A stretch of DNA of 62,810 nucleotides. It comes from an uncultured Alphaproteobacteria bacterium. GTDB lineage: Bacteria; Pseudomonadota; Alphaproteobacteria; CAAHEQ01; UBA3637. The stretch covers positions 1 to 62,810 of the forward strand of contig CALXUR010000006.1 of assembly GCA_944391735.1 (NCBI GenBank), in the 5' to 3' direction. Both the position numbers and the translations under genes were made by a program. Every line of letters begins with the position of its first letter. Within the stretch, counting starts at the first letter, position 1. Shown in pieces: positions 19,640 to 54,229 of the stretch. Below the pieces are notes generated by a model that saw only the letters and a program-made list of their open reading frames with translations, did no database searches and was not told the origin of the DNA.

Positions 19640-20764
19640 ATGACGGAAAAACAAAAGGTTACTCCAAATATGAAAGCGGCAAAAAACGAATCGGGCAAAT
19701 CCATGGTGGAGATGTTAGGTGTCTTGGCTTTGATGGGATTATTGGCTATTCTGGGGGCTAAAGGGTATAATATGGCCATGGAACGCGCGATGGCGAATGA
19801 GATTATCAATGATGTCAATAAACGCTCTCTACTTCATTCTCAACAGCTTTTGGCCGGCAGTGCTTTGGATGTTTCAGAAATGCCCGATAAAATCCGGGAT
19901 ATCTATCCCGTCTCCGCCGAAAAACTGGGGGTTCAGTTCTTTACCCTCAAAGTCTCTCAAGTAGAAACGCCTGTTTGTCGACGGATTGCTGATCTGGGCT
20001 ACCCCGTCCCGATTCAAGTCACAGCAAACGGGACAAAAATCTCTCCCGACAACACCACGCCTTGCGAAAATCAAACGGGTATTGTCGAAATGGCTTTTAC
20101 TTTTAACAGGACGTTGACCCCTTGTCCGGGCTGTTTGGATCAAATTATGTCATGTCTGAATGATTCATCTTGTAAAGAGGGTTACCTGTGCCAAGCTGGA
20201 CAATGTATTTGTCAATCTCCCTGTGGCACTTCCGGATGCTGTTTAAGTGGACAAGTTTGCTCGAATAATAAATGTGTTCAACCGGGGTGTGTTTCCGATG
20301 AAGATTGTGAAAACGGATCCTGTCTGGGAGGGCAGTGTGGATGTCAATCCTTTCGGGATTGTTCACCAAATCGATATTGTATTTTGGCTGAAGGTTGGAA
20401 TGGTGGTGGCATCGGACGTTGTAGTTCCTCATCAGATGTATCTGGTTCGGAAGGTGGATATATTTGGTCGGCGAAAAAAATGTTCTGGTATACAGCTGAT
20501 GATTTTTGTAAAAGTCATGGTATGGAATTAGTTGATACAAGTGGTTGGGATTGTGATACGACGGCTTGGTCCGCTATATGCTCTAACACAAATTTACCAG
20601 ATGGAATTGGAACGCATTGGTATTGGACGAAACATATATATGAAGGTAGAACTTTTTGGGCAATGCAACGTTATAATGCTTCTACTAAAGAGTTTGGTTT
20701 TCGAAAGGAACATTATTCGAATAACAGTGGCGCTATCGGCCCGACAGGAGCACTCTGCTATTAA
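19640..20764 (+). CDS. Cys-rich prepilin-like surface protein, copy A
   Basis: A 374-residue protein. Its N-terminus holds a class III-like prepilin signal: after a 19-residue charged leader ending SG comes KSMVEMLGVLALMGLLAILG, with Glu at +5 and a hydrophobic helix, as in type IV pilins and pseudopilins; +1 is Lys instead of Phe/Met. A middle region with about 20 Cys in short EGF-like spacing covers residues 155-260. The last 110 residues begin GGYIWSAKKMFWYTADDFC and end GALCY, resembling C-type-lectin-like folds (weak). A peptidase and assembly system are expected elsewhere. The last base is 23 bases from the convergent transferase. Inferred surface adhesin. Confidence 0.75.
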   Translation: MTEKQKVTPNMKAAKNESGKSMVEMLGVLALMGLLAILGAKGYNMAMERAMANEIINDVNKRSLLHSQQLLAGSALDVSEMPDKIRDIYPVSAEKLGVQFFTLKVSQVETPVCRRIADLGYPVPIQVTANGTKISPDNTTPCENQTGIVEMAFTFNRTLTPCPGCLDQIMSCLNDSSCKEGYLCQAGQCICQSPCGTSGCCLSGQVCSNNKCVQPGCVSDEDCENGSCLGGQCGCQSFRDCSPNRYCILAEGWNGGGIGRCSSSSDVSGSEGGYIWSAKKMFWYTADDFCKSHGMELVDTSGWDCDTTAWSAICSNTNLPDGIGTHWYWTKHIYEGRTFWAMQRYNASTKEFGFRKEHYSNNSGAIGPTGALCY

Positions 20765-20787
20765 CGTATAAGGGATGTAATGAACAA

Positions 20788-22389
20788 TTATTTCCTTGTG
20801 TTTAAAATACTTTTTTCGGGATTAAAATCATCATTGGTAAGGGACGAAATATCAATAATGGTGTGGATTGCATCTTGCAGATTATAATCGGTTTGAGGAG
20901 ATTGTCCCCGTTGTGCGATATCGGGGCGCAATTTCCGAAGCATCGGGGAAAGCCATAATATAAACGGAACAGAGGTCATCGGTTCATTTGCCAGTTCGGA
21001 ATGGCCTAAAATCCGATTGGGTGTTGAATCGAAAATATCCTCCCCGTGATCGGAAAAATAAAGCATGTATTGCGCACCCTCGGCCTCTTTTAACATTTGA
21101 ATGATTTGGTTGATAATATAATCGGTGTAACGGATGGAATCGTCATATGCATTTAACAGTTGATAGTTGGATCCGGAGAGTTTTTTACCGGGTAATGTGT
21201 CGGTAAAGTGTTTAAATTCGGAGGGATAGCGGTTCACGTATGCCGAATGGGATCCGATTAAATGCACGAAAATAACTTTTTTTGTATCGGTGTTTCGGAT
21301 GATTTTTTGAATATCTGGCAACATCGCCTCATCCAAACCTGCTTTTTCAAAACGTTTCATGCCACTGAAATTAAAATATTTATTGTAATCGGCATGCGAC
21401 GCCATAGCGGTCACAATCGTATCATCCAAAGCGTATTGGTTTGATAGCCAATATGTTTTAAAACCGGCTTGTTTAAAATAATCAATCATGTTGCCTTTTT
21501 CATACAAGTTATTCGGGTGATCGGTATCCGCAAAACTCAATGTTCGCTCCAAAGAGGGCATTGTTTGGGCAAAAGGGGAGCGAACGTTCGGGAACACAAT
21601 CAGTTCGTTTCGGATACAGTCCGTAAATTCATTTGTTTTTCGGGGATAGCCATATAAAGACAGGTGTGTTCTGTTAGCGGATTCTCCGATAACAATCACA
21701 TACGTTTGAGGTTGATCAGACGGTAAACTTGATTGAATTGTTTTAAAATCCGGTGCGGTATACTCGGCTATTTTTTGTTTCAGAGCCTGATAACTTTTTT
21801 TATATTCATAGTAATGATAAAAGATATTGCTATATGGATTTAAAATATAGGCGTCTTTAAATTTTGGCCAACGCCGTCCCAAATTACGAATAAACGGAAA
21901 TGAAAATGCGATTAGAACCGTGACGATACCCCCTTGTTGCAAAACTGTTTCAAACGCGGGCGCGGGTATCCGGGCAATCAAAACAAACGGTGACAGGAAA
22001 AAGAAAGCAAAACCGACGTATAAAACAGGCGGAATATTCTGACTGATAAACTCGCGCGTTTCTTTCATATTGGATACAAAAACGGTAAAAAAGGTATTTA
22101 AACCGATACGTGTTCCGAATAAGTAAATATGCCCCAGTTCGGCAAACATCAACGGCATGAAAAGCAATTGAATGAATCCCAGATACCAACGTGTTAGCGG
22201 TGGATAAATACAGGTCGGCAACATAACCAAACAACAGACAGGAATCGTCCGAATGAAATCTTTGCACAGCATTCGCAGAAAAGCCATGTCTTTTAACTTT
22301 TCCCATGTAACGGTTTTACACGATACATAGATAAGGGGTAGAAATGCAATCAGGGCTATATAGCCGAAAGCGGGCCAAAAATCAATCAT
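20788..22389 (-). CDS. Phosphoethanolamine transferase-like membrane sulfatase-fold protein
   Basis: A 533-residue inner-membrane enzyme expected to move phosphoethanolamine onto lipid A, core sugars or another surface glycan. Five N-terminal membrane helices (to about residue 170) precede a periplasmic alkaline-phosphatase fold: VIVIGESANRTHLSLYGY carries the metal/nucleophile region near residue 235, and YFSDHGED and GHSELANEPM carry further metal ligands. Where many family members have Thr, the residue after the Glu is Ser, so the exact nucleophile is unclear. Substrate not known. It lies 26 bases downstream of ettA on the same strand. Confidence 0.8.
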   Translation of the reverse strand: MIDFWPAFGYIALIAFLPLIYVSCKTVTWEKLKDMAFLRMLCKDFIRTIPVCCLVMLPTCIYPPLTRWYLGFIQLLFMPLMFAELGHIYLFGTRIGLNTFFTVFVSNMKETREFISQNIPPVLYVGFAFFFLSPFVLIARIPAPAFETVLQQGGIVTVLIAFSFPFIRNLGRRWPKFKDAYILNPYSNIFYHYYEYKKSYQALKQKIAEYTAPDFKTIQSSLPSDQPQTYVIVIGESANRTHLSLYGYPRKTNEFTDCIRNELIVFPNVRSPFAQTMPSLERTLSFADTDHPNNLYEKGNMIDYFKQAGFKTYWLSNQYALDDTIVTAMASHADYNKYFNFSGMKRFEKAGLDEAMLPDIQKIIRNTDTKKVIFVHLIGSHSAYVNRYPSEFKHFTDTLPGKKLSGSNYQLLNAYDDSIRYTDYIINQIIQMLKEAEGAQYMLYFSDHGEDIFDSTPNRILGHSELANEPMTSVPFILWLSPMLRKLRPDIAQRGQSPQTDYNLQDAIHTIIDISSLTNDDFNPEKSILNTRK

Positions 22390-22415
22390 GGGGGAAGATG
22401 ACCTTATATGTTTAT

Positions 22416-24092
22416 TTATGTTCGTTCAATCGGTTTGAATTTAATCCGATGGGGTTGATCCGCGTCCGTTCCCAGACGCCGGTGTTTGTCCGCTTCATAT
22501 TCGGCATAATTGCCTTCAAAGAAAACGACCCGACTGTCACCCTCAAAAGCCAGAATATGTGTGGCTAAGCGATCCAGAAACCAACGGTCATGCGATGTGA
22601 TAACCGCACACCCCGGGAAATCCATCAAAGCTTCTTCCAACGCCCGTAAGGTATCGACATCCAAATCATTTGTCGGTTCGTCCAACAATAAAACATTCGC
22701 GCCGGATTTTAACATCTTGGCCATATGAACGCGGTTGCGCTCACCGCCGGATAAAACACCGACTTTCTTTTGCTGATCCGGTCCCTTGAAATTGAATTGA
22801 GAGGCATATGAGCGGGAGTTGACTTCTCTTTTCCCGAGGGTTAAGATATCCAAACCGCCGGAGATTTCCTGCCAAACGGTTTTGTTCGGATCCAAACTGT
22901 CACGCGATTGATCCACATACCCGAGTTTAACGGTTTCTCCGATTCGGAACGTTCCCGCGTCCGGTTGTTCCTGCCCGGTAATAATGCGCATCAACGTTGT
23001 TTTACCGGCACCGTTCGGTCCGATAACGCCGACAATACCGCCGGCAGGCAGATTAAAACTTAAATCATCAAATAACAATTTATCTCCGAAAGCTTTTTTC
23101 AAGTGTTCCGCTTTCAGAACCAGTTCGCCCAAACGAGGCCCCGGAGGAATAATGATTTGAGCGGTTTCAGGTGCTTTTTCATTTGATTTTTTCAGGAGTT
23201 CCTCATATGCCGTGATACGTGCTTTGGATTTTGCTTGGCGCGCTTTCGGTGATTGCCGAACCCATTCCAATTCTTCCGCCAATGTTTTTTGACGGTTCTT
23301 TTCGGCATTTTGTTCTTGCTCTAACCGTTTTTGTTTTTGTTCCAGCCAGCTGGTATAATTTCCTTCATACGGGATTCCTTCGCCGCGATCCATTTCCAGA
23401 ATCCAGCCCGTCACATTATCCAGAAAATAGCGGTCATGGGTGATCATAACAACCGTGCCGCTGTAATTTTTCAAATATGTTTGAAGCCAGGCGATGGATT
23501 CGGCGTCCAAATGGTTGGTCGGTTCATCTAAAAGCAACATATCCGGTTTGGATAATAGCAATCGGCACAAGGCTACGCGTCGTTTTTCCCCACCGGATAA
23601 TTTCGTAACATCCGCATCACCCGGCGGGCAACGCAGCGCATCCATGGCAATTTCAATAGTTCGTTCGATTTCCCATCCGTTGCAGGCATCGATTTTCTCT
23701 TGTAATTCGGCTTGTTCGGCTAACAGTTTATCCATGTCTGCATCCGGATCGCAAAAAGCTTGGTTGACCTCTTCATAACGTTTCATTAGATCACGTATTT
23801 CCCCGACACCGTCCATAACGTTTTCCATAACGTTTTTAGACGGATCCAGTTGCGGTTCCTGGGGCAGGTAACCGACTTTGACTCCGTCGGCCGCCCACGC
23901 TTCACCCGTGAAATCCTGATCCAATCCGGCCATAATTTTTAAAAGGGTTGATTTACCGGCACCGTTCGGGCCGAGAACACCGATTTTGGCTCCCGGAAAA
24001 AACGATAACCAGATATGTTTTAAAACTTCCTTACCGCCCGGAAACGTTTTGCACAAATCCTTCATGACATAAATATATTGATACGCAGGCAT
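22416..24092 (-). CDS. ettA: Energy-dependent translational throttle protein EttA (ABC-F)
   Basis: A 558-residue soluble ABC-F ATPase that binds the ribosomal E site and gates translation by ATP level. Two ATPase cassettes with Walker [10 protein letters not shown] and GPNGAGKTT, signatures [12 protein letters not shown] and [13 protein letters not shown], and [11 protein letters not shown] / [11 protein letters not shown]alker B. The inter-domain arm and toe segments characteristic of EttA are present. Length is standard. The ribosome site GGGAAAGGAAT precedes the start. Confidence 0.95.
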
Positions 24093-24158
24093 AAAAATTC
24101 CTTTCCCCAGTAAACATAAACTGATGGTATCGTATCCGAAACGCCTTTGAAAGTCAAG

Positions 24159-25142
24159 TTATTTCCGTTTTGAAAACACGTTTAATCGCTTGATTTGCTT
24201 GTGCCCGACGGCTTTAATCATGGCTTTGACATCACGCATTTTCAGGTTTTCGTAATCAATATCCTGATAGGGTTTTGCAAAAAAACGCCGCCGCGCCTGT
24301 TCAAGGGGCGCGTCAAATATCGGTTCAAAAAAGCGAAGCAACGCCTCGTCCGTTAAATCATCGGGTAGTTTTCCGTTTTTAAAAACAGGAGCCCTCATCA
24401 TTTTCAGATACAAAGCATCATCCCGGTCAATCTTTTGAACAAAGTCAACCAACTGATCTATTGTTTGAAAATCATGGGCGTTGATAAAAGCGTCCGGATT
24501 GAAATCTTCACTGACGCGTGGATCTCCGTAATAAATCGGAACACAATCGGACGCGAACGCTTGCAGTATTTTTTCGGTTGTATAGCCCGGAGCGTATGTG
24601 TTTTCAAAAGCCAGTGCGAATTTATACCGGCTTTGAAAGGCGATTTTATCCTTGACCGCTCCGCCGACGTTATTTTGCCAACGTCCGCCCGATGCAACCG
24701 GTTTATAAACCGACAGTTTTCTAAAAGCTTCTTCCCGCCGTCCGTCTGTTTGCCGCGCGTTAGAGATGACGGTTGCGCAGAACCCCCGTTGTAGTAACGA
24801 TTTATCGGAACGTCCGACACTTTTTCGTATGGCTTTTTCCAAATCCGGCAGGCACATGCGCCACAAAGGGAGTCGGTGATATCTGTCTTCAAATGTCATA
24901 TGTTGAAAACCGAGGGCATAGTCGCAATAATTAAAATTGGGAACAACATTTTCGCCCGTCCAAAAAATACGAATTCCCGGAAAAGTGTGATGTGTGTTTC
25001 CGCCTAATGTATAAAAGATATAATCCGGCTTGTCCGAAATAACGACATTATATTTTTGGCGTAAAAAAGGTGTGAAAAACTCCTTTTCGGGATCCGAATA
25101 TCGTCCGAAATCCATATAATTGATTTTGATTGTTTTTTTCAT
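24159..25142 (-). CDS. Family 10 fucosyltransferase-like enzyme
   Basis: A 327-residue soluble transferase with the GT10 alpha-1,3/4-fucosyltransferase signature: FALAFENTYAPGYTTEKI at about residues 176-193 followed by the VPIYYGDPRVSED segment. The family moves fucose from GDP-fucose to GlcNAc, in bacteria on LPS O-chains or core; Lewis-type host mimicry is known in Helicobacter. The heptad repeats found in H. pylori enzymes are not visible, and the C-terminal tail is basic. Acceptor and in vivo role are unknown. It sits 22 bases downstream of dut. Confidence 0.82.
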   Translation of the reverse strand: MKKTIKINYMDFGRYSDPEKEFFTPFLRQKYNVVISDKPDYIFYTLGGNTHHTFPGIRIFWTGENVVPNFNYCDYALGFQHMTFEDRYHRLPLWRMCLPDLEKAIRKSVGRSDKSLLQRGFCATVISNARQTDGRREEAFRKLSVYKPVASGGRWQNNVGGAVKDKIAFQSRYKFALAFENTYAPGYTTEKILQAFASDCVPIYYGDPRVSEDFNPDAFINAHDFQTIDQLVDFVQKIDRDDALYLKMMRAPVFKNGKLPDDLTDEALLRFFEPIFDAPLEQARRRFFAKPYQDIDYENLKMRDVKAMIKAVGHKQIKRLNVFSKRK

Positions 25143-25164
25143 GTCTCCCCCTTTTTAGACAAGT

Positions 25165-25638
25165 TTAGCTTCTACCCGTTGAACCGAATCCCCCCGTTCC
25201 GCGTGTTGTGTTGTTGGTAACACTGTCGGTTACGACAATTTCAGGGTGAATGACAGGACAGATAACGGCCTGGGCAATCCGGTCTCCCGGTTGAATGACA
25301 AAAGGTTCTGTGCCCAAGTTAATCACCGTTGTTTTTAACTCACCCCGATATCCGAAATCAACGGTGCCGGGTGTGTTGACAATGGATATCCCGTGTTTCG
25401 CTGCCAAACCGGAACGGGGTCTGACTTGAATTTCATACCCGATGTCAGAACCGAAAGGAAAGGGACCTTCAAATTCGATTTTAATGCCGTTGGAAATCAG
25501 GGCGTATTCCCCCGGTTGTAAGGTAACGGGGGCTTTGATGGCAGCACGCAGATCAAAGCCCGAATCGTCGGTATGCTTGTAATTAAGTTCTCCCCAGCTT
25601 TTATCGTAACAATCCAGGTATTCAATCAGTAAACGCAT
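25165..25638 (-). CDS. dut: dUTP diphosphatase
   Basis: Hydrolyses dUTP to dUMP, keeping uracil out of DNA and providing dTMP precursor. The five trimeric dUTPase motifs are present: DDSGFDLRA (I), RPRSGLAAK (II), NTPGTVDFGYRGE (III), GDRIAQAV (IV), RGTGGFGSTGR (V). The 157 residues fit the family. AAAAGGAGA precedes the ATG. It shares a strand with uvrA and the GT10 gene. Confidence 0.95.
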   Translation of the reverse strand: MRLLIEYLDCYDKSWGELNYKHTDDSGFDLRAAIKAPVTLQPGEYALISNGIKIEFEGPFPFGSDIGYEIQVRPRSGLAAKHGISIVNTPGTVDFGYRGELKTTVINLGTEPFVIQPGDRIAQAVICPVIHPEIVVTDSVTNNTTRGTGGFGSTGRS

Positions 25639-25683
25639 TTTTTTCTCCTTTTGATATCATTTATCCCTTATTGCGGACGGTAT

Positions 25684-28903: not shown

Positions 28904-29386
28904 ATGACGGAAAAACAAAAGGTTACCCTCAATACGAAAGCGGCTAAAAACGAATCGGGAAATACACGCCCCCTGTCATCCTTGGATAATTTTTCTTCTT
29001 TGTCATCCTCGGGCTTACTGCGCAAGACAGAATCTGTCCGGCGGACAGTTCTGTCGCGCAAAGCAATGAACCTTAATGAGTCCGAGAATGCTCCGTCATC
29101 CGAGAGACGAATTTTAGGTGGAATTGGGGGATCCAGAGGCAAGGAATTCTTGTTTCTGGATTCCGGCTCGGAGGCCGGAATACTGCGTAAAGCACAACAA
29201 TCCAGTGATTGTTGTGATACGCAAAGCAATGAAACACCGCGAGCCAAGGTAGCGGAAGTCGCCGCAGGCAAGCGGATGTTGGAATTGAAAAATAAAAAGA
29301 CACGGGAATCCATAAAAAGGGAAGTCCCAAAAACGATTCCGAATCGGGCAAATCCATGGTGGAGATGTTGGGTGTTTTGGCTTTGA
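28904..29386 (+). other. Displaced leader ORF of prepilin-like copy B (160 residues)
   Basis: This frame begins with the same promoter module, ribosome site and MTEKQKVT leader as copy A, but after KNESG it reads through inserted sequence and ends 27 bases past the prepilin start in a different frame. It is the original 5' end of the gene, cut off from its body by the insertion. A minus-one slip at the CCCAAAA at 29326-29332 would join the two frames exactly and restore the ESGKSMVEM junction. No independent function is suggested. Confidence 0.6.
28951..29348 (+). repeat. 389-bp insertion of palindromic repeats in the prepilin leader
   Basis: Copy A reads straight through CGAATCGGG into the pilin motif. 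In copy B that nine-base word occurs twice, at 28951-28959 and 29340-29348, around 380 extra bases. The insert holds three palindromes: 29026-29055 (GACAGAA... with a bulge), ATTCCGGC/GCCGGAAT at 29160-29181, and CACAACAATC/GATTGTTGTG at 29193-29216. The first and third are framed by TACTGCG and GCAAAGCAATGAA words. The insert length (389, two mod three) shifts the frame. No transposase is present. Confidence 0.75.
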
Positions 29387-30372
29387 TGGGATTATTGGCT
29401 ATTCTGGGTGCTAAAGGGTATAATATGGCCATGGAACGCGCGATGGCGAATGAGATTATCAATGATGTCAATAAACGCTCTCTGCTTCATTCTCAACAGC
29501 TTCTGGCCGGTAGTGCCCTTGATTCTTCCGAACTTCCAATGACTATACAAGGCGGCTATCCTGTCTCTTCCTCTCCTTTTGGGGATGTCTTCTTTCGTAT
29601 TGATGTTTCCGAGGTGACACCGGAAGTTTGTAAACGACTCGGAAAAATGGATTATCGTAAACCGCTTCAAATAAAAGCCAATGACAAACTGTTGACCGCC
29701 TCTGATCAAAGTTCCTGTTCCGGTGCCGCCAATCTGCTTTCTTTCTTTTTTCTGAAAGACCTGACCGCTTGTCCGGATTGCCTGGATAATCGAAAAACAT
29801 GTGTTGGGCAATCGGGGTGTGCTGCGAATGAAACATGCCGGAATAACCTGTGTGTTTGTGCCCCTCAATACAGTTGCGGTGCCACGTGTTGTTCCGCGGG
29901 TCAATCCTGTATTAACGGAAAGTGTTCCAATGCTCAAGCCTGCGATGACGATTCTTTCTGCGATGGTGTTTGCGAAAACGGAGCTTGTATCTGTCATTCT
30001 TATCGTGATTGCATTCATTATTGCACATTCTTGTGGGGAAGGACGGATCTTGGTACTTGCTCCAACGGAGACCATTTAGGCACGGATAGTGATATGGGGG
30101 GATATATTTACTCAACTGTTGGGCTGAATTATTATAATGCGATTGATTTTTGCGCAAAGTATAATAAGAAATTATTGACGCCTGAAGAATTAGGGTGTCA
30201 AAATCGTGCGGATGGACAGGGGTGGATCTGTAACCTGTCAAATCTTCCCAAAGGGAGGTTTTGGACAAAGACATGGTTCAGCAATGATACGCCATATGCC
30301 ATTGATACAACAAGTCAGCAGATTAAGACAGATTGTGGTTGGACATGCAATCGAAATGCTCTTTGCAGATAA
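29356..30372 (+). CDS. Cys-rich prepilin-like surface protein, copy B (start lost by insertion)
   Basis: A 338-residue frame starting MVEMLGVLAL. Its first 55 residues equal copy A and differ only synonymously in DNA; the rest diverges. Upstream in frame the leader KNDSESGKS is intact, but a TAA precedes it and there is no ATG, GTG or TTG, so the prepilin leader cannot be translated normally. Cys-rich middle (about residues 130-220) and a lectin-like C-terminus with FCAKYN, FWTKTW and ALCR follow. Either frame-broken and dead, started internally without its leader, or rescued by slippage at 29326. Presence of an intact C-terminal half with no stop suggests recent disruption. Confidence 0.65.
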   Translation: MVEMLGVLALMGLLAILGAKGYNMAMERAMANEIINDVNKRSLLHSQQLLAGSALDSSELPMTIQGGYPVSSSPFGDVFFRIDVSEVTPEVCKRLGKMDYRKPLQIKANDKLLTASDQSSCSGAANLLSFFFLKDLTACPDCLDNRKTCVGQSGCAANETCRNNLCVCAPQYSCGATCCSAGQSCINGKCSNAQACDDDSFCDGVCENGACICHSYRDCIHYCTFLWGRTDLGTCSNGDHLGTDSDMGGYIYSTVGLNYYNAIDFCAKYNKKLLTPEELGCQNRADGQGWICNLSNLPKGRFWTKTWFSNDTPYAIDTTSQQIKTDCGWTCNRNALCR

Positions 30373-39907: not shown

Positions 39908-39913
39908 AACGCC

Positions 39914-42583: not shown

Positions 42584-44542
42584 TTATACAGATGATGATT
42601 CCGAAAGAAGATTACCTTGTGGATCATAGGTTGACCATTCCCCGATTTTTTCACCGTTTTTGTATTGGCCGCTTGCTTTTAACTGTCCGTTTTCGTGATA
42701 GTATTTCCAAGGCCCTTCTTTTTTTTCGTCTTTAAAATTTCCTTCGGCCTCTAATTGTCCGTTTTCATAGTAGTATTTCCAAAGACTTTCTCCTTTTTCA
42801 TCTTTGAAAATTCCTTCGGCCTCTAATTGCCCATTTTTATGGTAGTATTTCAAAAGCCCTTTTGCTTTTCCGTCTTTGAAATTCCCTTCGGACTTCAATT
42901 GTCCGTTTTCGTAATAGGATTTCAAAGATCCTTCTAGCCTCCCATCTTTGAAATTTTCTTCGGCATCTAATTGCCCGTTTTTATGGTAGTATTGCCAAAG
43001 TCCTTCTTTGTTTCCCTCTTTGAAAATTCCTTCAGCATCTAATTGCCCGTTTTCATGGTAGTATTTCCACAGACCTTCTCCTTCGTCATTTTTGAAATTT
43101 CCCTCGGACTTCAACTGTCCGTTTTCATGGTAGTTTTTCCAAGCTTCTTCTTTTTTACCGTTTTTGAAAATTCCTTCGGCTTTTAATTGTCCGTTTTCAT
43201 GGTAATATTTCCACGGCCCTTCTTTTTTAGCATCTTTGAAAATTCCTTCGGCTTTTAATTGCCCGTTTTCGTAATAAGACTTATAAATCCCTTCCTCTTT
43301 TCCATCTTTGAAATTGCTCTCGGCTTTTAATTGTCCGTTTTCATGGTAATATTTCCACAGACCTTCGTCTTTATCGTTTTTGACACCTCCTTCGCTTTTT
43401 AATTGCCCATTTTCGTGGTAGTATTTCCAAGAGCCTTCGCCTTTTCCGTCTTTGTAACTTCCTTTGCTTTTTAATTGTCCGTTTTCATAGTAGTATTTCC
43501 AAAGACCTTCGCCTTTTCCGTCTTTGTAATTTTCTTCAACTTTTACTTGCCCATTTTCATGGTAATATTTCCACGGCCCTTCTTTTTTAGCATCTTTGAA
43601 ATTTCCTTCGGCTTTTAATTGCCCGTTTTCATAGTAGTATTTCCAAAGACCTTCGCCTTTTCCGTCTTTGTAATTTTCTTCAACTTTTACTTGCCCATTT
43701 TCATGGTAATATTTCCACGGCCCTTCTTTTTTAGCATCTTTGAAATTTCCTTCGGCTTTTACTTGCCCATTTTCATGGTAATATTTCCACGGCCCTTCTT
43801 TTTTAGCATCTTTGAAATTTCCTTCGGCTTTTAATTGCCCGTTTTCGTAATAAAATTTATAAATCCCTTCTTTGTTTCCGTCTTTGAAATTTTCTTCGGA
43901 CTTCAACTGTCCGTTTTCATAGTAGTTTTTCCAAGAGCCTTCTTTTTTACTCTTAAGAAATGCTAAACTCCTTTCAAATGCTGATTTTAATGGCTTGTCA
44001 AGGGATTGATAAGAATCCTTTTTATCATCTTCACTTTTTACTATCTTGAAATTTCCTTCGGCTTTTAATTGCCCGTTTTCGTAATAAAATTTATAAATCC
44101 CTTCTTTGTTTCCGTCTTTGAAATTTTCTTCGGACTTCAACTGCCCGTTTTCATAGTAGTATTTCCAAGAGCCTTCTTTTTTATCGTCTTTGTAACTTTC
44201 TTCGGCTTTTAATTGCCCATTTTCGTGGTAGTATTTCCACAGCCCTTCTTCTTTACCACCTTTGTAATTTCCTTCTCTTTTTAATTGCCCGTTTTCGTGA
44301 TAGTATTTCCACAGCCCTTCTTTTTTGCCGCCTTTGAAATTTCCTTCGGCATTTAATTGCCCGTTTTTATGATAGAATTTCCAAATAGATTCTTTTTTTC
44401 CATCTTTGAAGTTTCCTTTAGCAAACAGTTGCCCGTTGTCATGATAAAGTTTCCAAATAGATTCTTTTTTCCCGTCTTTGAAGATCTCTTCGATCTCTAC
44501 TTTATTATTTCCATATTTTTGCGTTTTTGAGTATTGATTCAT
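42584..44542 (-). CDS. Large MORN_2-repeat protein
   Basis: A 652-residue protein made almost entirely of 24 units of a 24-residue repeat (HENGQLKAEGNFKDGKKEGL is its core), matching the MORN_2 pattern that databases sometimes label antitoxin; no toxin gene is nearby. One unit is followed by an unrelated 35-residue insert, SQSLDKPL-like (KDSYQSLDKPLKSAFERSLA). The last 13 residues end ESSSV. ATG 44542 was chosen for GGAGGAATGT; an in-frame TTG is 15 bases further out. No signal peptide, so probably cytoplasmic or exported by an unusual route. Function unknown. Confidence 0.8.
   Translation of the reverse strand: MNQYSKTQKYGNNKVEIEEIFKDGKKESIWKLYHDNGQLFAKGNFKDGKKESIWKFYHKNGQLNAEGNFKGGKKEGLWKYYHENGQLKREGNYKGGKEEGLWKYYHENGQLKAEESYKDDKKEGSWKYYYENGQLKSEENFKDGNKEGIYKFYYENGQLKAEGNFKIVKSEDDKKDSYQSLDKPLKSAFERSLAFLKSKKEGSWKNYYENGQLKSEENFKDGNKEGIYKFYYENGQLKAEGNFKDAKKEGPWKYYHENGQVKAEGNFKDAKKEGPWKYYHENGQVKVEENYKDGKGEGLWKYYYENGQLKAEGNFKDAKKEGPWKYYHENGQVKVEENYKDGKGEGLWKYYYENGQLKSKGSYKDGKGEGSWKYYHENGQLKSEGGVKNDKDEGLWKYYHENGQLKAESNFKDGKEEGIYKSYYENGQLKAEGIFKDAKKEGPWKYYHENGQLKAEGIFKNGKKEEAWKNYHENGQLKSEGNFKNDEGEGLWKYYHENGQLDAEGIFKEGNKEGLWQYYHKNGQLDAEENFKDGRLEGSLKSYYENGQLKSEGNFKDGKAKGLLKYYHKNGQLEAEGIFKDEKGESLWKYYYENGQLEAEGNFKDEKKEGPWKYYHENGQLKASGQYKNGEKIGEWSTYDPQGNLLSESSSV
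42620..44500 (-). repeat. 72-bp in-frame repeat array
   Basis: Twenty-four near-identical 72-base units. A two-unit block is present twice back to back (about 43528-43671 and 43672-43815) and nearly identical in DNA, so the array expanded recently. Units flank the non-repeat insert at about 43940-44045. Confidence 0.9.
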
Positions 44543-44613
44543 ACATTCCTCCTTCAAAGATTATTATCAATACTCATATTATATCATAATACAGACTATT
44601 TGTAAACTTTTTT

Positions 44614-46665: not shown

Positions 46666-47124
46666 AATGGATCATTATAATTTTATAAGAGGACAGGTCC
46701 TTGGAAAGAGTATGGTGGATACGGCACAGTAAGTGCTGAAGGGGCGTATGAAAACGGGAAGAGGATAGGACCTTGGAAGTATTATCATGGCAACGGCAAT
46801 GTAAAGGCCGAAGGGGCGTATGATGAAAACGGGAAGGCGACCGGTCATTGGAAGTATTATTATAAAAGCGGCCAGGTAAAGGTCGAAGGAGGTTATCAAG
46901 ACGGATATAAGATGGGCTGGTGGAAAGAGTATTATGAAAACGGGAATAAAAAATCTGTGAAAGCGTATATGATGGATCAAAAAGTCGGAACGTGGAAATA
47001 TTATGATGAAAATGGAGAACTGACAACCCAGGAAAAGCACAGTCGGGCATCGGAAGAAAGAATTAATACATACTCATCGGATGTGTTGCTTTTAAATCAT
47101 CTCAAACCTGGCAGTCGCGGATAA
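46666..47124 (+). pseudogene. Decayed MORN_2-repeat gene
   Basis: From 46681 to the stop at 47122-47124 one frame reads continuous MORN_2 units (GPWKEYGGYG, GPWKYYHGNG, KYYYKSGQVKVEG, WKEYYENGNKKS, WKYYDENGEL), but it has no start codon before ATG 46912. Another frame offers ATG 46666 (MDHYNF), which would enter the repeat frame only with a frameshift around 46680. The intact part from 46912 is 70 residues. I treat it as a frame-broken relative of the large repeat protein on the other side of argS. Confidence 0.7.
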
Positions 47125-47160
47125 CAAATATCCCCCGATTTTCGGAGGATATTTGTTTTA
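47122..47160. terminator. Bidirectional terminator
   Basis: Long hairpin AACAAATATCC/GGATATTTGTT with inner CCGA/TCGG between the decayed MORN_2 gene and oadB, closing both. Confidence 0.75.
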
Positions 47161-47168
47161 CCTTGCTT

Positions 47169-48422
47169 TTAACTACACAAAGCCAATAAAATACCGGCCG
47201 CGATTGCCGACCCGATGGCTCCCGAAACGTTGGCGCCCATGGCGTGCATCAACAAATGGTTTTCCGGATTTTCCTCTTGACCCAGCTTTTCGGAAACTCG
47301 TGCCGCCATCGGAATGGCCGACACACCCGCCGATCCAATCAACGGATTCATCTTGTTTTTCAAAAACAGATTCATGCCCTTGGCCATTAAAACGCCGGAA
47401 GCCGTTCCGATACCGAACGCGATAACGCCCAGAATTAAAACAACCAATGTCTGCGACACTAAAAACAATTCGGCCGATAACTTTGAACCGACGGAAAGTC
47501 CCAATAATACGGTAACGATATTGATCAGATCGTTGGCTGCCGTTTTAGCCAGACGCTCCGTAACACCCGATTCTTTTAACAGGTTCCCGAACATCAACAT
47601 ACCGATCAGCGAAACTGCCATGGGAATAAACAATCCCGTTAAGATAATGACAATAATCGGAAACAGGATTTTTTCCCGCTGGCTGACGGGACGCAGTTGC
47701 GTCATTTGAATCCGGCGATCCGTTTGTGTTGTCAAAGCGCGCATAATCGGCGGTTGAATAACCGGAACCAACGCCATGTATGAATAAGCCGCAACGGCAA
47801 TCGCACCCAACAGTTCCGGAGCCAGTTTTCCGGCCAGGAAAATCGATGTCGGACCATCCGCACCCCCGATAATGGCGATGGAAGCCGCTTGTTTTAAAGT
47901 CAGTTCAAATCCTGGGATAAGACCGCCCAATGCGATACCGCCAAGGAATGTGCCGAAAATGGCGAATTGTGCCGCCCCGCCCAACAAAGCCGTTTTCGGA
48001 TTAGCCAACATGGGGCCGAAGTCAATCATGGCGCCGACACCCAAAAAGATTAACAGCGGAAATAAACCGTTTCCGATGCCGAATTGATATAAAACGGATA
48101 ACAATCCGCCTTCATCCGTCAGACCGGCTCCGGGCATGTTGGCCAGTAATCCGCCGGTTGCAATCGGAATCAACAACAAAGGCTCAAATTTTTTGACAAT
48201 TCCCAAGTATAGCAGGATCAGACAAATACCAATCATGACAATCTGCCCGACGCCAAGCGGCAAAAACATTCCTTTTGGAACGGGCTGAGCGGCAATCAAC
48301 CAGGCACCGGTTTGCTTCATAATACTTGTCAGAGCCGGTGATACCGCCGTGCCGAATCCTAAAACACCGCATATCGCCAGAGCCAGAACGCCCCAAAACC
48401 AAATTGAATTAAGCTTGGTCAT
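47169..48422 (-). CDS. oadB: Sodium-pumping decarboxylase beta subunit (OadB/GcdB)
   Basis: The membrane part of a biotin decarboxylase that couples removal of CO2 from carboxybiotin to Na+ export. The 417 residues form about nine membrane helices with the Na+ and proton site [14 protein letters not shown] and the conserved [15 protein letters not shown] stretch. Its start overlaps oadA by 14 bases. With oadA and oadG it forms a complete pump, typical of anaerobic or fermenting cells. Decarboxylation substrate (oxaloacetate, methylmalonyl-CoA or glutaconyl-CoA) is set by the alpha subunit. Confidence 0.92.
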
Positions 48423-50226
48423 AAGCCACCTCCAAAACAGGTTGTCCGGTTTTCACTTGTTCTCCTTTTTGAACCAATATTCGGGTAACCGTTCCCGGCT
48501 GGCCGGCGCGGATGAATGTTTCCATTTTCATAACTTCCAAAACACACAGGTTTTGTCCCGCGGCAATATGGTCTCCTTCTTTGACCGGAATTTGGGTGAC
48601 AAGCCCCGGTGTTCCGGCGGTTATGACGGATACGGAACCTGTCGCCCTCGGAGCCTCGGCTTTTTCTTTGGCAGGTTCTATGCTGTCCGAAACGGATACG
48701 TCGTATGTTGTTCCGTTCACTTCGGCTTGTGCGCCGTTCAAACGGACGGTAAACGATTCGCCGTCAACGGTAATCCGATATACGTCGGATTTTTCTTTCG
48801 GTGTTTCTTTATAGCGAACGCCCACCTTTCCTTTACCTTGCAGGAACGCGATTCCTTTATCACCGCAACTGGCCGCGATAAAGACATTTTCATCCGTTAT
48901 CGGCAGGTTCGCCGTTTTCAACATGTCTTCATAATGTGCTCGGGATTTATCCGGATTTCGATCGTTGATAGCCAGAACCGTTTCTTTTGTCGGCTTTAAT
49001 CCCAATTGTTCGGCGGCGATTTTAACCACTTCTTTATCCGGTGTGACCGGTGTTTTTCCAAAGTATCCCAAAACCATTTTACCGTAACCTTCGGCAATTT
49101 TTTTCCAAGGCCCTTGCATCACATTGTTAAATGCCTGTTGAAAGTAAAATTGCGAAACCGGTGTGACGGATGTTCCGAAACCGCCTTTGCGAACGACTTC
49201 CTCCATAGCGACAATGATTTCGCCGTATTTATCCATCAATCCGTTGTCACGTAACATCTGTGTGTTGGCCGTTAAAGCACCGCCGGGCATCGGTGACCAC
49301 GGAATCCGGGGATCCGCGTGTAACGCTTCGGGGGGCATAAAGTAAGGATTTAACGCTTCTTTCAACGTTTCCTCTACCCGCATGACGGCGTCGATGTCGC
49401 ATTCCAATTCATAGTCCATACCACGCAAGGCGTGCCACATTGTGGCGACGTCGGGTTGGCATGTTCCCCCGGATACGGGGGCTAACGATAAGTCGACAAT
49501 GTCAGCTCCCGCCTGTATTGCCGCCAGATAACAGGCAAGCCCGACACCGGCGGTTTCATGGGAATGAAATTCAATCGGACATGTGTTTCCGACCAACTTT
49601 CGCGCCCGGACAATTGTTTCATAGACAACGGCAGGCACGGATGTCCCCGAGGCATCCTTGAAACATAACGAATCAAACGGAATCCCGGCCTTGATGAACT
49701 TTTTTAACCGTTCTTCATAAAAATCAGGTGTGTGCGCTCCCTCCGCCCCCGGCGGTAATGACATGATCGCAACACATAACTGATGTTTTAAACCGGCTTT
49801 TTTGATACATTCGGCACTATAAAGTAAATTTTCGGGATCGTTTAACGCGTCAAAGTTCCGAATGGTTGAAACGCCGTGCTTTTTAAACAAATCGGCATGC
49901 AGTTTGATCATGTCGGAACTTTGGGAATCCAGCGCAACAACATTGACACCGCGCGCCAATGTTTGCAAATTGACATCCGGGCCGCAGATATCGCGGAACT
50001 TGTCCATGACGTCAAACGCATTTTCATTGTTGTAAAAGAAAGCGGATTGGAATGAAGCACCGCCTCCGGATTCAATATTTGTGATGCCGGCTTTGACGGC
50101 TTCCGCCACAACCGGTAAATAATCTTTTGACAGGACGCGTGATCCGTAACAGGATTGAAATCCGTCTCGAAACGCCGTGCACATAAATGAAATCTTCTTT
50201 TTTCCGGAACGTTTTTTTGTTGCCAT
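48409..50226 (-). CDS. oadA: Oxaloacetate decarboxylase alpha subunit with biotin domain
   Basis: Carboxyltransferase plus biotin carrier: transfers the carboxyl from oxaloacetate to biotin. The 605 residues start with the DRE-TIM-type barrel ([15 protein letters not shown], metal and biotin site), a conserved PYC/OADA domain, a linker, and the C-terminal biotinyl domain with [10 protein letters not shown] (biotinylated K567). The PYC-type barrel points to oxaloacetate or pyruvate carboxylation. It starts 15 bases after oadG with AGGGAGGG. Confidence 0.93.
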
Positions 50227-50241
50227 AATAACACCCTCCCT

Positions 50242-50412
50242 TTATTCCTGATGTTTTGCCAGCGCGATTGCCGCCGCTATTTTACTTAAATTGTCGCGCG
50301 ATGTGTTTGCTAATGCGATTCGCAGGATATTCATGCCGCAAATCAACAGGAACAAAAATACAAACACACCCCCCATGCCGATGATGGTAATCGTTAATGC
50401 TTCAGAAATCAT
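50242..50412 (-). CDS. oadG: Oxaloacetate decarboxylase gamma chain, short
   Basis: A 56-residue single-pass membrane protein: MISEALTITIIGMGGVFVFL, continuing as one membrane helix, then a short cytoplasmic tail with NLSKIAAAIALAKHQE, like the conserved IAAAIA tail of OadG. Usual members have about 80 residues; this one lacks the long linker. GGAGG is five bases upstream. Position gamma-alpha-beta on one strand matches the classical oadGAB order, and the gene is absent from long-ORF lists. Confidence 0.82.
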   Translation of the reverse strand: MISEALTITIIGMGGVFVFLFLLICGMNILRIALANTSRDNLSKIAAAIALAKHQE

Positions 50413-50439
50413 ACATCCTCCTTCTATGTATCTGCGAAA

Positions 50440-50468
50440 AGTCTAAATGTTCTTTTTTGTATTTGCAA
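50440..50468 (-). promoter_or_regulatory. oadGAB promoter
   Basis: On the minus strand TTGCAA (50468-50463), 17 bases, TAGACT (50445-50440), 28 bases before oadG. Confidence 0.65.
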
Positions 50469-50500
50469 GCCTTTTTATTTTGATTTTCGGAAAAAGATAC

Positions 50501-50529
50501 TTGCATTTTAGTGTCCTGTTTGATAAAAT
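50501..50529 (+). promoter_or_regulatory. Promoter of the lysozyme-like gene
   Basis: TTGCAT (50501-50506), 17 bases, TAAAAT (50524-50529), divergent from the oadGAB promoter. Confidence 0.65.
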
Positions 50530-50549
50530 AAAATCAAGGAGGACTGTTT

Positions 50550-51542
50550 ATGGCTATATCACGACGCGGTTTTTTGGGGCTTTTGGCTGCCGGTGGATTT
50601 ACCACCGCTGCTTCGGCGGCAAAAATACCATTGCCGTCGTCGAACATAACGTCCCGCATGACGGATCGAGAGAAGTTGTTTTTATCCTATCTGCCGGTTT
50701 TAGAGGCAAATGAAAACAAAATACTTCATTTTTATCGGGACTCGAAAGGAGGAGTAACCGTAGGGTGCGGCACAAACGTCGCGGCACACAAGGCTTTGTT
50801 TGCCGGGTTGAATATTTCCGTTCGTTATAATGGTAAAGTGTTGTCACCAAAAGCAAGGGATACTTTTTTAAACAGGGTCGATCGTTTACCTGGCGCGGTT
50901 TTGGAAAAGTATGAAATTAATGAAGACGATGCCGTTCGATTGGCACGCCAAACTATTAACGGTTTTATTGATGATTTGGAAAAACAATTTAAAAGTCCGG
51001 CGGATAAAAGAAAAAAAAAGGTGTTGTTTTTTGGTCTGCCGTTATGTATGCAGGCGTTGGCTTTAGATGTTTTGTATAATGTGGGGCGGGAGCGTTTTAA
51101 GACGTATGTCAAGTTTGACAAGGCTTTGCGGAAAGGGGATTATGAAACGGCCGTGGCCGAATCCCGTGTGCTGACGGATACAGCAGCTAAAAAATACAAT
51201 GTTCAGCGGGAAATTCGAAAAAAACGGTTTTTAGAGGTTTGTAAAATCGTTTGGAAATCCGTTGGACAGAATAAACCGTTGTCGGATGTGTTGCCTCAAA
51301 TTGTGGATAGCTATGATAAACAGGGAAATACAAATAAAAACCCGGAGGAACGCCGTTTGAACTTATGCGCCGAAACGGCCTTGGCAACGGGGGAGTATTA
51401 CCATTTTACCCAAAACTGGCGGCACTTGTCCGCCTCTCAGTTTGAACAGAAAATTAGTCGAAGTATGTATGATATGAACCGGATGATTCAACGGGAAAAT
51501 CTGGCTCAAATAGCGAAAAAAGAACAAAAATCAATAGGTTAA
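50550..51542 (+). CDS. Tat-exported lysozyme-like (GH24) protein
   Basis: A 330-residue protein with a twin-arginine signal SRRGFLGLLAAGG and cleavage near ASAA (residue 24). The mature N-terminal part has the T4-lysozyme catalytic set at the right spacing: E55, D64 (HFYRDSKGG) and T70 (VTVGCG), then a lysozyme-like ALALDVLYNVGRERF helix. The C-terminal 130 residues are not recognised. AAGGAGG precedes the ATG. It may cut peptidoglycan for remodelling; Tat export suggests folding or a cofactor before export. It is followed by trpS after two bases. Confidence 0.75.
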   Translation: MAISRRGFLGLLAAGGFTTAASAAKIPLPSSNITSRMTDREKLFLSYLPVLEANENKILHFYRDSKGGVTVGCGTNVAAHKALFAGLNISVRYNGKVLSPKARDTFLNRVDRLPGAVLEKYEINEDDAVRLARQTINGFIDDLEKQFKSPADKRKKKVLFFGLPLCMQALALDVLYNVGRERFKTYVKFDKALRKGDYETAVAESRVLTDTAAKKYNVQREIRKKRFLEVCKIVWKSVGQNKPLSDVLPQIVDSYDKQGNTNKNPEERRLNLCAETALATGEYYHFTQNWRHLSASQFEQKISRSMYDMNRMIQRENLAQIAKKEQKSIG

Positions 51543-51544
51543 AT

Positions 51545-52570
51545 ATGATAGATTTAAAAAATAAAACAATCCTGACAGGAATTAAGCCGACAGGGACTCT
51601 TCATTTCGGGAATTACGCTGGCGCGTTAAAGCCGGCCGTGGAATTGGGACATCAGGTTAACAGGGAAGGGGGGCGACATATTATGTTTGTGGCGGATTAC
51701 CATGCCATTAACGCCATCAAAGATGCGCCGCTTTTGAAACAGTTGACACGTGAAATCGCGTGCGCCTATTTGGCGTGCGGTCTGGATCCGAAAAAATCTT
51801 ATTTTTATAAACAATCCGATGTTCCGGAATTGTTTGAACTGACAACTATTTTGATGGCATATACCCCCAAAGGATTTATGAATAAGGCGCACGCCTATAA
51901 GGCTGCCGTGGATAAAAATACGGCCAAGGGGGAACCGCCCGATGCCGGTATCAACATGGGGTTGTATACCTATCCTGTTTTGATGGCGGCCGATATTTTG
52001 GCGTATGATACGGATTTGGTGCCCGTTGGTAAAGATCAAATTCAACACGTGGAAATCGCGGCCGATATTGCCGGATCCATTAATGCGCATTATGGTTCGC
52101 CCGTTTTTAAATTGCCGCGTTATTTCACAACCGAGGCAACCGAAGTTGTCCCGGGCTTGGATGGTCGGAAGATGAGTAAGAGCTATAACAACGTCATTCC
52201 CTTGTTTGCAGATGATGCTGTTTTGAAAAAAGCGGTGATGAGTATTAAAACGGATTGCCAGGATATTAACGCGCCGAAGAATCCGGACGAGATTTTACTG
52301 TATCAAATTTTGCGCGGTATTGCGCCGGTGGAAATGGTTGCCGAGGTTAAAGAGGGGCTTGAAAAAGGCGGTATGGGATATGGCACGATTAAAAAGATGT
52401 TGTTGCAGGCCATTATTGATGAAATCGGTGAAAAGCGTGAGAAATATCATGACTATTTAACGCATTTTGATACGGTGGAGGATATGTTGCGCGACGGTGC
52501 CGAACGGGCACGGACTTTGGTTCGTCCGGTTTTGGAACGTGCCAAGGATGCAGTCTTTAATCGGAAATAA
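51545..52570 (+). CDS. trpS: Tryptophanyl-tRNA synthetase
   Basis: Charges tRNA-Trp. The 341-residue class I enzyme has TGIKPTGTLHFGNYAGAL (HIGH region) near the N-terminus and GRKMSKSYNN (KMSKS) near residue 210. It starts two bases after the lysozyme-like gene, so it is likely cotranscribed, and is followed by a terminator. Confidence 0.95.
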   Translation: MIDLKNKTILTGIKPTGTLHFGNYAGALKPAVELGHQVNREGGRHIMFVADYHAINAIKDAPLLKQLTREIACAYLACGLDPKKSYFYKQSDVPELFELTTILMAYTPKGFMNKAHAYKAAVDKNTAKGEPPDAGINMGLYTYPVLMAADILAYDTDLVPVGKDQIQHVEIAADIAGSINAHYGSPVFKLPRYFTTEATEVVPGLDGRKMSKSYNNVIPLFADDAVLKKAVMSIKTDCQDINAPKNPDEILLYQILRGIAPVEMVAEVKEGLEKGGMGYGTIKKMLLQAIIDEIGEKREKYHDYLTHFDTVEDMLRDGAERARTLVRPVLERAKDAVFNRK

Positions 52571-52578
52571 TATCCGCT

Positions 52579-52610
52579 TAAAAAAAACGTCCCGAAAAGG
52601 GACGTTTTTC
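52579..52610. terminator. Bidirectional trpS terminator
   Basis: ACGTCCC/GGGACGT arms with an A-run on one side and T5 on the other, between trpS and the convergent prepilin-like gene C. Confidence 0.85.
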
Positions 52611-54229
52611 TATCCGCCACACCTGTCATTGTTCCACGTCAGCCCGCAGGCTTGACATTGCGTTTCTGTCAGGTTGGAGGCTTGATTCGGTTTGGGGCAC
52701 TTTTTGCAGGTTGTGTTATCCAAGTACCGAACGCCGATACAATCGATTTCGCATTTGTTGGCTGTGTTGGCAACCTTGAAATCGGCAGTTTGTTGACAGG
52801 AGACACAGTTATAAACATTATCGTATGTTTTTCCGACACCGCAGTCCGCTTTGGCACAATATCGTTTATTCCAGCCTCCAAAGGAAATACGCGATGGTCT
52901 GTCTGTTGAGTGTCCATCACAAATTTGAGCACACGTTTTCGAATCTGAATTTTCCAAATAAAACGAAGAGTCTTCCCCGCAGGTATGACAACGCCCTGTG
53001 TTGTCCATTATTGGCGCATTTTCGGGACATCCGCAAATACCGTTTGTATCAATTGTTCCCTCCGGACAAGTCAGGGCACACCATTTATCCGCGTATACAA
53101 AACGAGATGAACACAGATGGCATGTTTCAGTATAACTTTTGGCAGCAAATGTTACCCCCTGATTGATATTATTTGGGTAATCGCAGGGATAACATAATCC
53201 GTTATATGATTGAACCGGTGTATTCGACGGACACTGCTTTAAAACACACCACCCTTCATAACTGAATCCCTTATTGCGATAGATTCTATTCAAACATCTT
53301 TTACACGGTTGCCAGTTGAGAGCATCTTGTTTGACTGCTGTTTGACGTTCACTCGACACGTCGTCACATGCGACACATTCTCCATAAAGTGTGTAAAGCG
53401 GTTTATCCGGTGGGCAACAATATTCTCCGTTTTCATCGCAACACGTGCCGTTATCGCCGGGATAAGCGCAACAGACACCGTCCACAATATGATCCGGCGC
53501 ACAGCATGTCTTGGCTCCTGTATCGAAATCTTTGATACAGCTTGCCGTCGCATCGCAAGTGGGTTGACACAGGCCGTCTAGGCACTCTTCACATCCGTTG
53601 ATACAGTCATCGGTCGTTTCGCAACGCCCCGGAGGCGGCTCGGTGCCCGCTCCCAGTAAACCGTCAAAAATGAACGTTAATCCGCTTTCTCCCGATTGAC
53701 AGTGCATTTCCGAGCTGATTGGTATATCGTTCAGATGAATATCCACCGGCATTTGCCAATTCAAATTCAGTATTTGGTTGCAAACACCTTCTTTTATGTT
53801 ATCCACTTTGATTCCAAAGTAAGAAGGTCTGTTTTCATAGGCGGTAATCAGACTAGTCGGATAATTTTGATTGATTTTTATTGGAAATTCGGAAAGGGAA
53901 ACAGATTGACCGGCCGTATATTGTGAAGAGGCAACAATTGCCCGTTTTTTGACTTCATTGATAATTTCATTCGCATTGTATTTGTCTACCGCATATCGAT
54001 AGCCGATAATCCCTCCGATGGCTAATACGCCCATAATCGCCAACACACCCAGCATTTCCACCATCGAACGCCCGGATTCATCACCCTGCGTCATTCCCGT
54101 TTTTTTATAATGTGTCATTCCCGTGCTCCGACACGGGAATCCAGTAACACGTAATTCTTCTTTTTCGGTTCCTTGGGGCAACTCCGCTTCTTCTCGGCTT
54201 CCTGCATCTCTTTTTCCTCTCATTCCCAT
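52610..54229 (-). CDS. Cys-rich prepilin-like surface protein, copy C
   Basis: A 539-residue protein of the same prepilin-like family but more divergent. The pilin motif GRSMVEMLGVLAIMGVLAIG starts about 55 residues in, much later than in copy A (residue 20); the extra leader includes the palindrome-encoded VTGFPCRSTGMTHYKKTGMT. Then about 40 Cys, mostly C-x2-C and C-x3-C groups (CCDENGEYCCPPDKPL, CPSNTPV), stretch to the C-terminus ending TWNNDRCGG. No lectin-like end. Start ATG 54229 chosen for AGGAAAGGG; the in-frame ATG 54259 (MTIKFLQ) is also possible and would be coupled to a mini-ORF. Confidence 0.72.
   Translation of the reverse strand: MGMRGKRDAGSREEAELPQGTEKEELRVTGFPCRSTGMTHYKKTGMTQGDESGRSMVEMLGVLAIMGVLAIGGIIGYRYAVDKYNANEIINEVKKRAIVASSQYTAGQSVSLSEFPIKINQNYPTSLITAYENRPSYFGIKVDNIKEGVCNQILNLNWQMPVDIHLNDIPISSEMHCQSGESGLTFIFDGLLGAGTEPPPGRCETTDDCINGCEECLDGLCQPTCDATASCIKDFDTGAKTCCAPDHIVDGVCCAYPGDNGTCCDENGEYCCPPDKPLYTLYGECVACDDVSSERQTAVKQDALNWQPCKRCLNRIYRNKGFSYEGWCVLKQCPSNTPVQSYNGLCYPCDYPNNINQGVTFAAKSYTETCHLCSSRFVYADKWCALTCPEGTIDTNGICGCPENAPIMDNTGRCHTCGEDSSFYLENSDSKTCAQICDGHSTDRPSRISFGGWNKRYCAKADCGVGKTYDNVYNCVSCQQTADFKVANTANKCEIDCIGVRYLDNTTCKKCPKPNQASNLTETQCQACGLTWNNDRCGG
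54112..54151 (-). repeat. Palindromic repeat inside the copy C leader
   Basis: ATTCCCGTG/CACGGGAAT arms (54117-54125, 54132-54140) with a six-base loop, plus an adjacent TCATTCCCGT word at about 54091-54100. The word GACACGGGAATCCA is shared with the insert in copy B (about 29299-29312). It is translated as part of the leader. Confidence 0.75.

Follow-up and report, generated by a model that had tools for sequence, protein, structure and literature searches.

In IncI plasmids such as R64, the minor pilin PilV joins a constant type IVb pilin N-terminus to a switchable C-terminal binding end that recognizes partner cells. In the IncI plasmid TP114, the shufflon variants of PilV act as adhesins that select the recipient cell (PMC9045228). 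We analyzed a stretch of 62,810 nucleotides from an uncultured alphaproteobacterium (contig CALXUR010000006.1 of assembly GCA_944391735.1; here called the window), which carries three copies, A, B and C, of a prepilin-like gene built on a comparable plan. We propose, with a probability of nearly 0.8, that they belong to a scattered family of type IV prepilin-like proteins in many of which a nearly constant anchor is joined to a varied Cys-rich C-terminal half, for display on a type IVb pilus, the lectin-type ends in sister genes and sister species probably having been diversified by a diversity-generating retroelement (DGR). The pilus would be of the same kind as that bearing PilV, with tips varied by an unrelated mechanism: in the shufflon a site-specific recombinase swaps variants within one gene, whereas here the genes are scattered and number in the tens, lectin-type ends occur among them, and a DGR signature takes the place of inversion.

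DGRs are powerful targeted mutators in bacteria, and for most of their targets no role is known. As in known DGRs, an AAY-rich template is found here with genes for Avd and a reverse transcriptase (RT) beside it. The DGR proteins Mtd and TvpA also resemble the proteins described here in carrying a C-terminal variable region (VR) within a C-type lectin fold. The same arrangement is described for AvpA (PMC5006420). Here, unlike in these three, the VR sits on a type IVb prepilin-like protein, and a single genome can show up to 19 pattern hits (genome G022). Pilin-related DGR targets have been touched on before, which is common ground with this family: homologues of a Bacteroides ovatus pilin tip are given as DGR targets (PMC6199706), and 'putative pilin structures', which could be of type IV, are linked to DUF1566 domains in a DGR context (PMC6642488, citing its reference 5). 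The term 'pilin' did not occur in a search of the main text of PMC8144416. What appears to be new is the type IVb prepilin carrier, for which no earlier report was found in the literature searched, a scope outside which most subscription papers fall; within it, no paper was found that treats a DGR together with a prepilin, or that combines 'type IV pilin', C-type lectin and a retroelement. The Bacteroides pilins belong to another class, unrelated to type IV.

A search model built from A, B and C was applied to 58 genomes, 34 of the same family and 24 of other families. The first-pass annotation, made from the letters of the window, had proposed a search for the motif MVEMLGVLA, and this search bore fruit: the family occurs at 32 places in the window's own genome (G000; 1,003,394 bases, a 75% complete assembly), scattered over contigs and in several cases at contig ends, and in all 34 same-family genomes, as compared with 3 of the 24 others, which is more than would be expected by chance. 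The scale is unusual, with 11 to 68 prepilin-like loci in each same-family genome of about 1 to 2 Mb (68 is a lower bound in three genomes, owing to the scoring limit) and 19 VR-pattern hits in one genome. Thirty of the 32 own loci were examined, of which 14 have lectin-type ends, as judged by reading the sequences, about 10 have Cys-repeat bodies like that of C, and the rest are of other kinds or fragments. Two small prepilins on contig C14 of G000 (L069 and L072; 148 and 131 residues) could be major pilins. The motif was also confirmed in 445 named records, and most of the 80 that were listed are metagenome-assembled genomes titled Alphaproteobacteria bacterium; many of their titles mention roe deer, sheep, goat or water buffalo gut, and one record is labelled Akkermansia.

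An adenine-specific mutator has left its mark on prepilin tips in several genera. On contig C32 of the same-genus genome G001 (L171), a prepilin gene at 224-1504 has its VR at 1418-1514, and the template repeat (TR) lies 0.6 kb away at 2137-2233. Comparison of the two revealed changes at 17 of 29 template adenines and at 0 of 68 other bases (P 1.4e-11); this DNA is identical to that of the named record JAFTEW010000050.1 (L191). No RT frame was found beside the L171 template within the stretch examined. Since the RT of G001 is located on another contig than this template, it would have to act in trans. Mismatches were likewise concentrated at template adenines in L083 (9 of 28 adenines, 0 of 60 others), in L078 (11 of 29, and 1 of 69) and in the set from G047. 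The template of G020 sits in the spacer between avd and RT and matches three C-termini, from which it differs at 10, 11 and 11 of 23 adenines and at 1, 1 and 5 of 37 other bases; two of the three are prepilins, and the frame of the third is cut at the contig start. The VR lies at the end of the predicted C-type lectin domain. In the window's own genome, the prepilins L057 and L059 differ near their ends in codons with a mostly constant third base, and three further prepilins (on contigs C5, C8 and C16) carry both the prepilin motif and a VR.

A census of the VR-codon pattern covered 44 family genomes, 13 of which contained 64 hits in all, compared with 3 for the reversed pattern. Hits were most numerous in G022 (19), followed by G007 (12), G043 (7), G000 and G062 (5 each) and G020 (4), with fewer in seven other genomes. 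Two of the 64 are templates (L120 and G001:C32:2157), and at least two more, those of L116 and L118 inside long frames, are probably due to chance. In L113 the frame is complete and has a VR but lacks the prepilin motif, and L121 encodes a secreted lectin-like protein of small size. We fetched 38 VR stretches (19 of 19 from G022, 12 of 12 from G007, three from G020, 2 of 3 from G042 and 2 of 5 from G000). The prepilin motif was present in 26 of the 38 frames, including all 24 with a complete 5' end; the 14 others are cut off at the 5' end, and two of these still show it. Because the search pattern fixes some third bases, codons were counted only outside it, with CGN codons dropped. Third-base C then made up 114 of 136 codons in G022 (0.18 in the gene bodies), 66 of 79 in G007 (body 0.20), 27 of 34 in G020 and G042 together (body 0.22), and 24 of 34 in G000, the rest being T (body 0.16). 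The VRs of one genome are related, so P values calculated from these counts would be too strong. It could be objected that this is an ordinary, fast-diverging family of Cys-rich surface proteins whose adenine pattern is an artefact of composition, given an A+T-rich genome (44.6% G+C in the window) and a search pattern with fixed third bases. We consider this highly improbable, in view of the untouched non-adenine positions of L171, the persistence of the signature in codons outside the pattern, the reversed-pattern control, and the adjacency of avd, TR and RT.

RT matches were obtained in 10 of the 44 family genomes, three of them in the window's genus. G001 and G004 share the order prepilin-like gene, avd, template, RT and a VR-bearing gene for a small, secreted lectin-like protein, and avd-like gene, template and RT occur together in L083, L078, L082 and L084. 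The gene before avd was inspected for the prepilin motif in six genomes. A prepilin-like gene directly precedes the avd-like gene and RT in four of them, with the motif ESGRSMVEVLGV in G004, SGRSMVEILGV in G005 and G049, and ENGRSIIEILGV in G001, the last recognized by eye after the motif search had missed it. The start of this gene falls beyond the contig end in G047, and no prepilin-like frame was found before avd in G020, where avd sits at the contig start. The Avd of G001 matches the PHROG family 'Avd protein of DGR' at 1.4e-16, and bAvd (34 bits) and DivGenRetAVD (44 bits) below their cut-offs, in a model scan that covered L083 only. The RT of G001 matches RVT_1 with 58.7 bits, and the best solved-structure match of the DGR RT by sequence is 8ub7 (1.2e-22), which we take to be the DGR enzyme of phage BPP-1. 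No TR/VR pair emerged when the RT loci of G005, G049, G002 and G014:C19 (L080, L081, L085, L086) were each compared with themselves. We rejected the RT of G007 and G014 as the source of the G007 VRs, because its template matches another protein. A second kind of DGR, with the template before RT and the variable region after it, was noticed in L076 (G014) and L077 (G007). Its mismatches fall at template adenines in 10 of 11 and 8 of 9 cases, and its variable-region frame also appears to hold a P-loop-like stretch.

The machinery for such a pilus was sought in the family genomes. A prepilin peptidase gene is present in G000 (PF01478 at G000:C2:144983-145297, 52.4 bits) and in 23 of 23 family genomes searched. 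In the genus mate G004, six adjacent genes match TcpQ (1.7e-17), PilN, PilO (2.7e-27), PilP, T2SSE ATPase (2.8e-69) and T2SSF platform (8e-25), the order of an R64-type thin-pilus operon; R64 likewise has machinery of the PilN/PilO/PilP type. The PilN match to the type IVB secretin (2.1e-81, 274 bits) falls slightly below the NCBIfam cut-off of 287.65, and so does PilP (4e-7, 31.1 against 34.65). The platform gene was found in 12 of 14 same-family genomes examined, PilN in 3 of 5 genus genomes, and the pilus ATPase family in the 22 other family genomes searched, G001 having only a single, divergent match. The family proteins might instead be pseudopilins of a secretion system, or tips of a DNA-transfer pilus rather than host-binding adhesins. 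G004 does contain a PilT-like ATPase, and a third T2SSE-family ATPase of about 333 residues occurs in the family; R64-type pili, moreover, are described as recognizing partners in mating pairs (PMC9045228). However, the machinery matches type IVb PilN/PilO, with 2e-81 for PilN against 3e-7 for GspD, and we judge this alternative unlikely. We know of no pseudopilins that occur in such numbers with lectin-type ends.

The structures of copy A and of a sister, P0073, were modelled, since a lectin fold in the C-terminal domains had been suggested as a check. Both models show a type IVb pilin fold, including its globular part, followed by a C-type lectin fold, as scored by VIA-align Z, on which the fold statements rest; Foldseek alone gave 0 matches at E <= 0.001. 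A helix spans residues 20-71 of A. Model confidence was moderate for A (predicted local distance difference test 71.8, predicted template modelling score 0.41) and 79.6 for P0073, with most blocks of its lectin part above 90. A C-type lectin domain is predicted in A and is likely in many sisters.

Several results weigh against the proposed reading. On the pilin side, 0 of 5 copies scanned (A, B, C, L171 and L095) reached a curated Pfam pilin cut-off. The first-pass annotation had called for the cognate peptidase and ATPase to be located; the peptidase is in the genome, but searches of the 75% complete G000 revealed no pilus ATPase, platform or PilN, and even in G001, which is 98% complete, neither platform nor PilN was found. 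On the DGR side, there is no VR pattern in A, B or C and no pattern hit on contig C6; no DGR RT was found in G000, none of its five pattern hits is an all-adenine template, and its corresponding site lacks the avd-TR-RT cassette of G001 and G004. The assemblies of G022 and G007, the richest in VR hits, likewise show neither an RT nor a template that would match, an in-frame stop interrupts the RTs of G020 and G049, and the G002 RT is truncated. These findings would fit a DGR that is dead in the window's lineage, with its cassette lost, the VR prepilins left as relics, and variation now arising by recombination and point mutation only. We see this as a possibility to be taken seriously, though short of probable. 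The incomplete assembly has several copies at contig ends, where assembly can lose cassettes, and the C8 prepilin of G000 and its 18 homologues argue for more recent activity. In this set of 19 sequences, residues 21-80 have a mean pairwise difference of 0.00-0.02 per block, whereas 14 VR positions, the most variable of all, differ by 0.81-0.95 and the V, L, G, V, R and A-L-C between them are largely kept. Such variability at the VR indicates that the process was recent in close kin. The middle of these proteins also varies (0.2-0.45), a further point on the negative side, so part of the divergence lies outside the VR. On contig C7 of G000, the prepilin L075 stands next to a gene for a small, secreted lectin-like protein whose end resembles a VR (L087:17100-17504); the counterparts of these two in G004 flank the cassette that is missing between them in G000.

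Within the window (Table 1), A and B proved to be identical over 61 residues (ESGKS to ALD), slightly more than the 55 or so estimated from the letters, and the DNA of this anchor (29341-29523 in B) differs in 8 codons, all silently as had been claimed. DNA identity is 95% over the anchor and then drops to 48% (residues 62-145) and 45% (body). The earlier statement that the copies then diverge fully holds for this drop, but not for the proteins, which can still be aligned (27 of 82 and 68 of 192 residues alike) with many Cys columns in common. The same 61 residues are 95-99% identical in DNA among A, B and the sisters L047 and L049 of the same genome; among A, L047 and L049 an identity of 91-95% continues as far as residue 145, after which it is about 50%. 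Because silent sites show the same step, selection on the protein alone is insufficient, and we infer that recombination or a recent duplication of the anchor produced it. A and B show only this recombination-type variation, not DGR variation. A DGR acting on A or B was considered and rejected, as their C-terminal codons lack a constant third base (by eye) and contig C6 has no pattern hit. Copy C, as first described, shares MVEMLGVLA and has a different Cys-rich body; this body is made of Cys repeats, and the pilin-type domain is shared as well.

Type IV prepilins usually have Phe or Met at +1, though not strictly. Neither is present in A, B or C: the Lys (A and B) or Arg (C) noted at this position in the first pass was seen again, and Gly at -1 and Glu at +5 are retained. 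Otherwise A and C display a class III signal, with ESG followed by Lys or Arg, then S-M-V-E, and a hydrophobic helix. Pfam and NCBIfam scans put a name to none of the submitted copies, and weak matches of A and B to a Dickkopf-type Cys-rich Pfam family were not trusted.

As assembled, copy B does not form a working prepilin gene. It has no intact prepilin start: the leader ATG (28904) is out of frame with the body, a TAA stands at 29293-29295, and the first ATG, GTG or TTG after it is the methionine of MVEML itself. Another own copy, L067, has in-frame stops. These two defective copies, together with the homogenized anchors and the sharp identity step, recall antigenic variation by gene conversion, in which scattered copies donate to a few expressed pilins, as pilS does to pilE in Neisseria, and B would be a silent donor. 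The likeness to pilE/pilS extends to the many scattered partial or whole pilin copies and to recombination among them. We nevertheless hold this explanation to be quite unlikely. Many copies here keep their own start: a common upstream block, [A]TGACC[A/G]TTA, precedes 14 of 30 own copies examined, including A (L017) and C (L050), and a ribosome-binding-like site follows it in 14 of 14; in most of the 30, a long open frame follows the motif. Moreover, the anchor is the shared, homogenized part here, whereas in pilS/pilE the varying part moves. The upstream block points to shared control or to duplicated 5' ends.

The repeats of the B insert recur in the leaders of L047, L051, L060, L061 and L067. 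More broadly, short repeats, in several cases in frame, are common to the B insert, the leader of C, and the leaders of L047, L051, L053-L055, L060-L063 and L067. They are reminiscent of Rickettsia palindromic elements.

Table 1. Features of the three prepilin-like copies in the window.
Feature	Position	Strand	Description
Copy A	19640-20764	+	Intact prepilin-like gene, 374 amino acids; open reading frame and translation
Ribosome-binding-like site GAAAGGAAG	Immediately 5' of copy A		Sequence
Copy A leader, 19 amino acids	19640-19696	+	Ends ...NESG, then K+1 S+2 M+3 V+4 E+5; putative cleavage site
Copy A anchor stretch	19688-19870	+	Protein identical to that of B; 8 silent codon differences
Copy A residues 20-157	19697-20110	+	Predicted type IVb pilin-type domain
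Copy A residues 158-268	20111-20443	+	Cys-rich linker, short strand pairs; sequence and model
Copy A residues 269-374	20444-20764	+	Predicted C-type lectin-type domain; no DGR pattern match
Copy B leader remnant MTEKQKVTLNTKAAKNESG	28904-28960	+	Frame differs from that of the B body
Short-repeat insert splitting B leader from body	28961-29340 (ends approximate; about 380 bases)	+	Repeat matches
Copy B body	29341-30372	+	Anchor, Cys-rich linker, C-terminus aligning to the lectin-type end of A; first start codon 29356
Copy C	52610-54259	-	Prepilin-like gene, 549 amino acids; Cys-repeat body without lectin-type end
Copy C leader	54071-54259	-	Up to 63 amino acids as far as ESG, with the first ATG as start; short repeats common to other leaders

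On the basis of these results, the following route may be proposed. The leader would be cut after Gly -1 by the prepilin peptidase, whose gene is present, and the hydrophobic helix would enter a type IVb, R64-like pilus, the operon for which is found in G004 and presumed in G000. The lectin-type end would then be exposed and, by analogy with PilV tips, might bind partner or host surfaces. Variation could come from two sources: adenine-specific rewriting of VR codons from the TR by the DGR RT with Avd, to which the TR/VR pattern points, and recombination that keeps anchors alike and bodies different, as the step at silent sites suggests. The initial reading of a constant anchor with a variable display, which could present adhesins or receptors through a pilus-like apparatus, is supported. 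A bolder version, for and against which we find the evidence evenly balanced, holds that each genome of about 1 Mb encodes tens of lectin-tipped type IVb pilins with anchors interchangeable through recombination and up to 19 tips rewritten by the retroelement, offering ever-new binding sites on a common pilus. A variable lectin end on a type IVb pilin would provide a concrete delivery route, with a candidate role in adhesion or partner choice, in uncultured gut bacteria. If so, these bacteria could vary what they bind, and the set of lectins on the pili of such a reduced alphaproteobacterium of the gut would be a bacterial counterpart of a variable receptor repertoire.

Other genes of the window were also noted. 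A protein built of many repeats of the type '...DGKKEGLWKYYHENGQLKAEG...' is encoded at 42584-44557 (minus strand). At 50550-51542 (plus strand), one gene from the 3' end of C, a frame shows weak similarity, below cut-off, to Pesticin and phage lysozyme. Near the contig end (60677-62375), a tRNA-Met is followed by a gene at 61065-62375 that we read as integrase-like.

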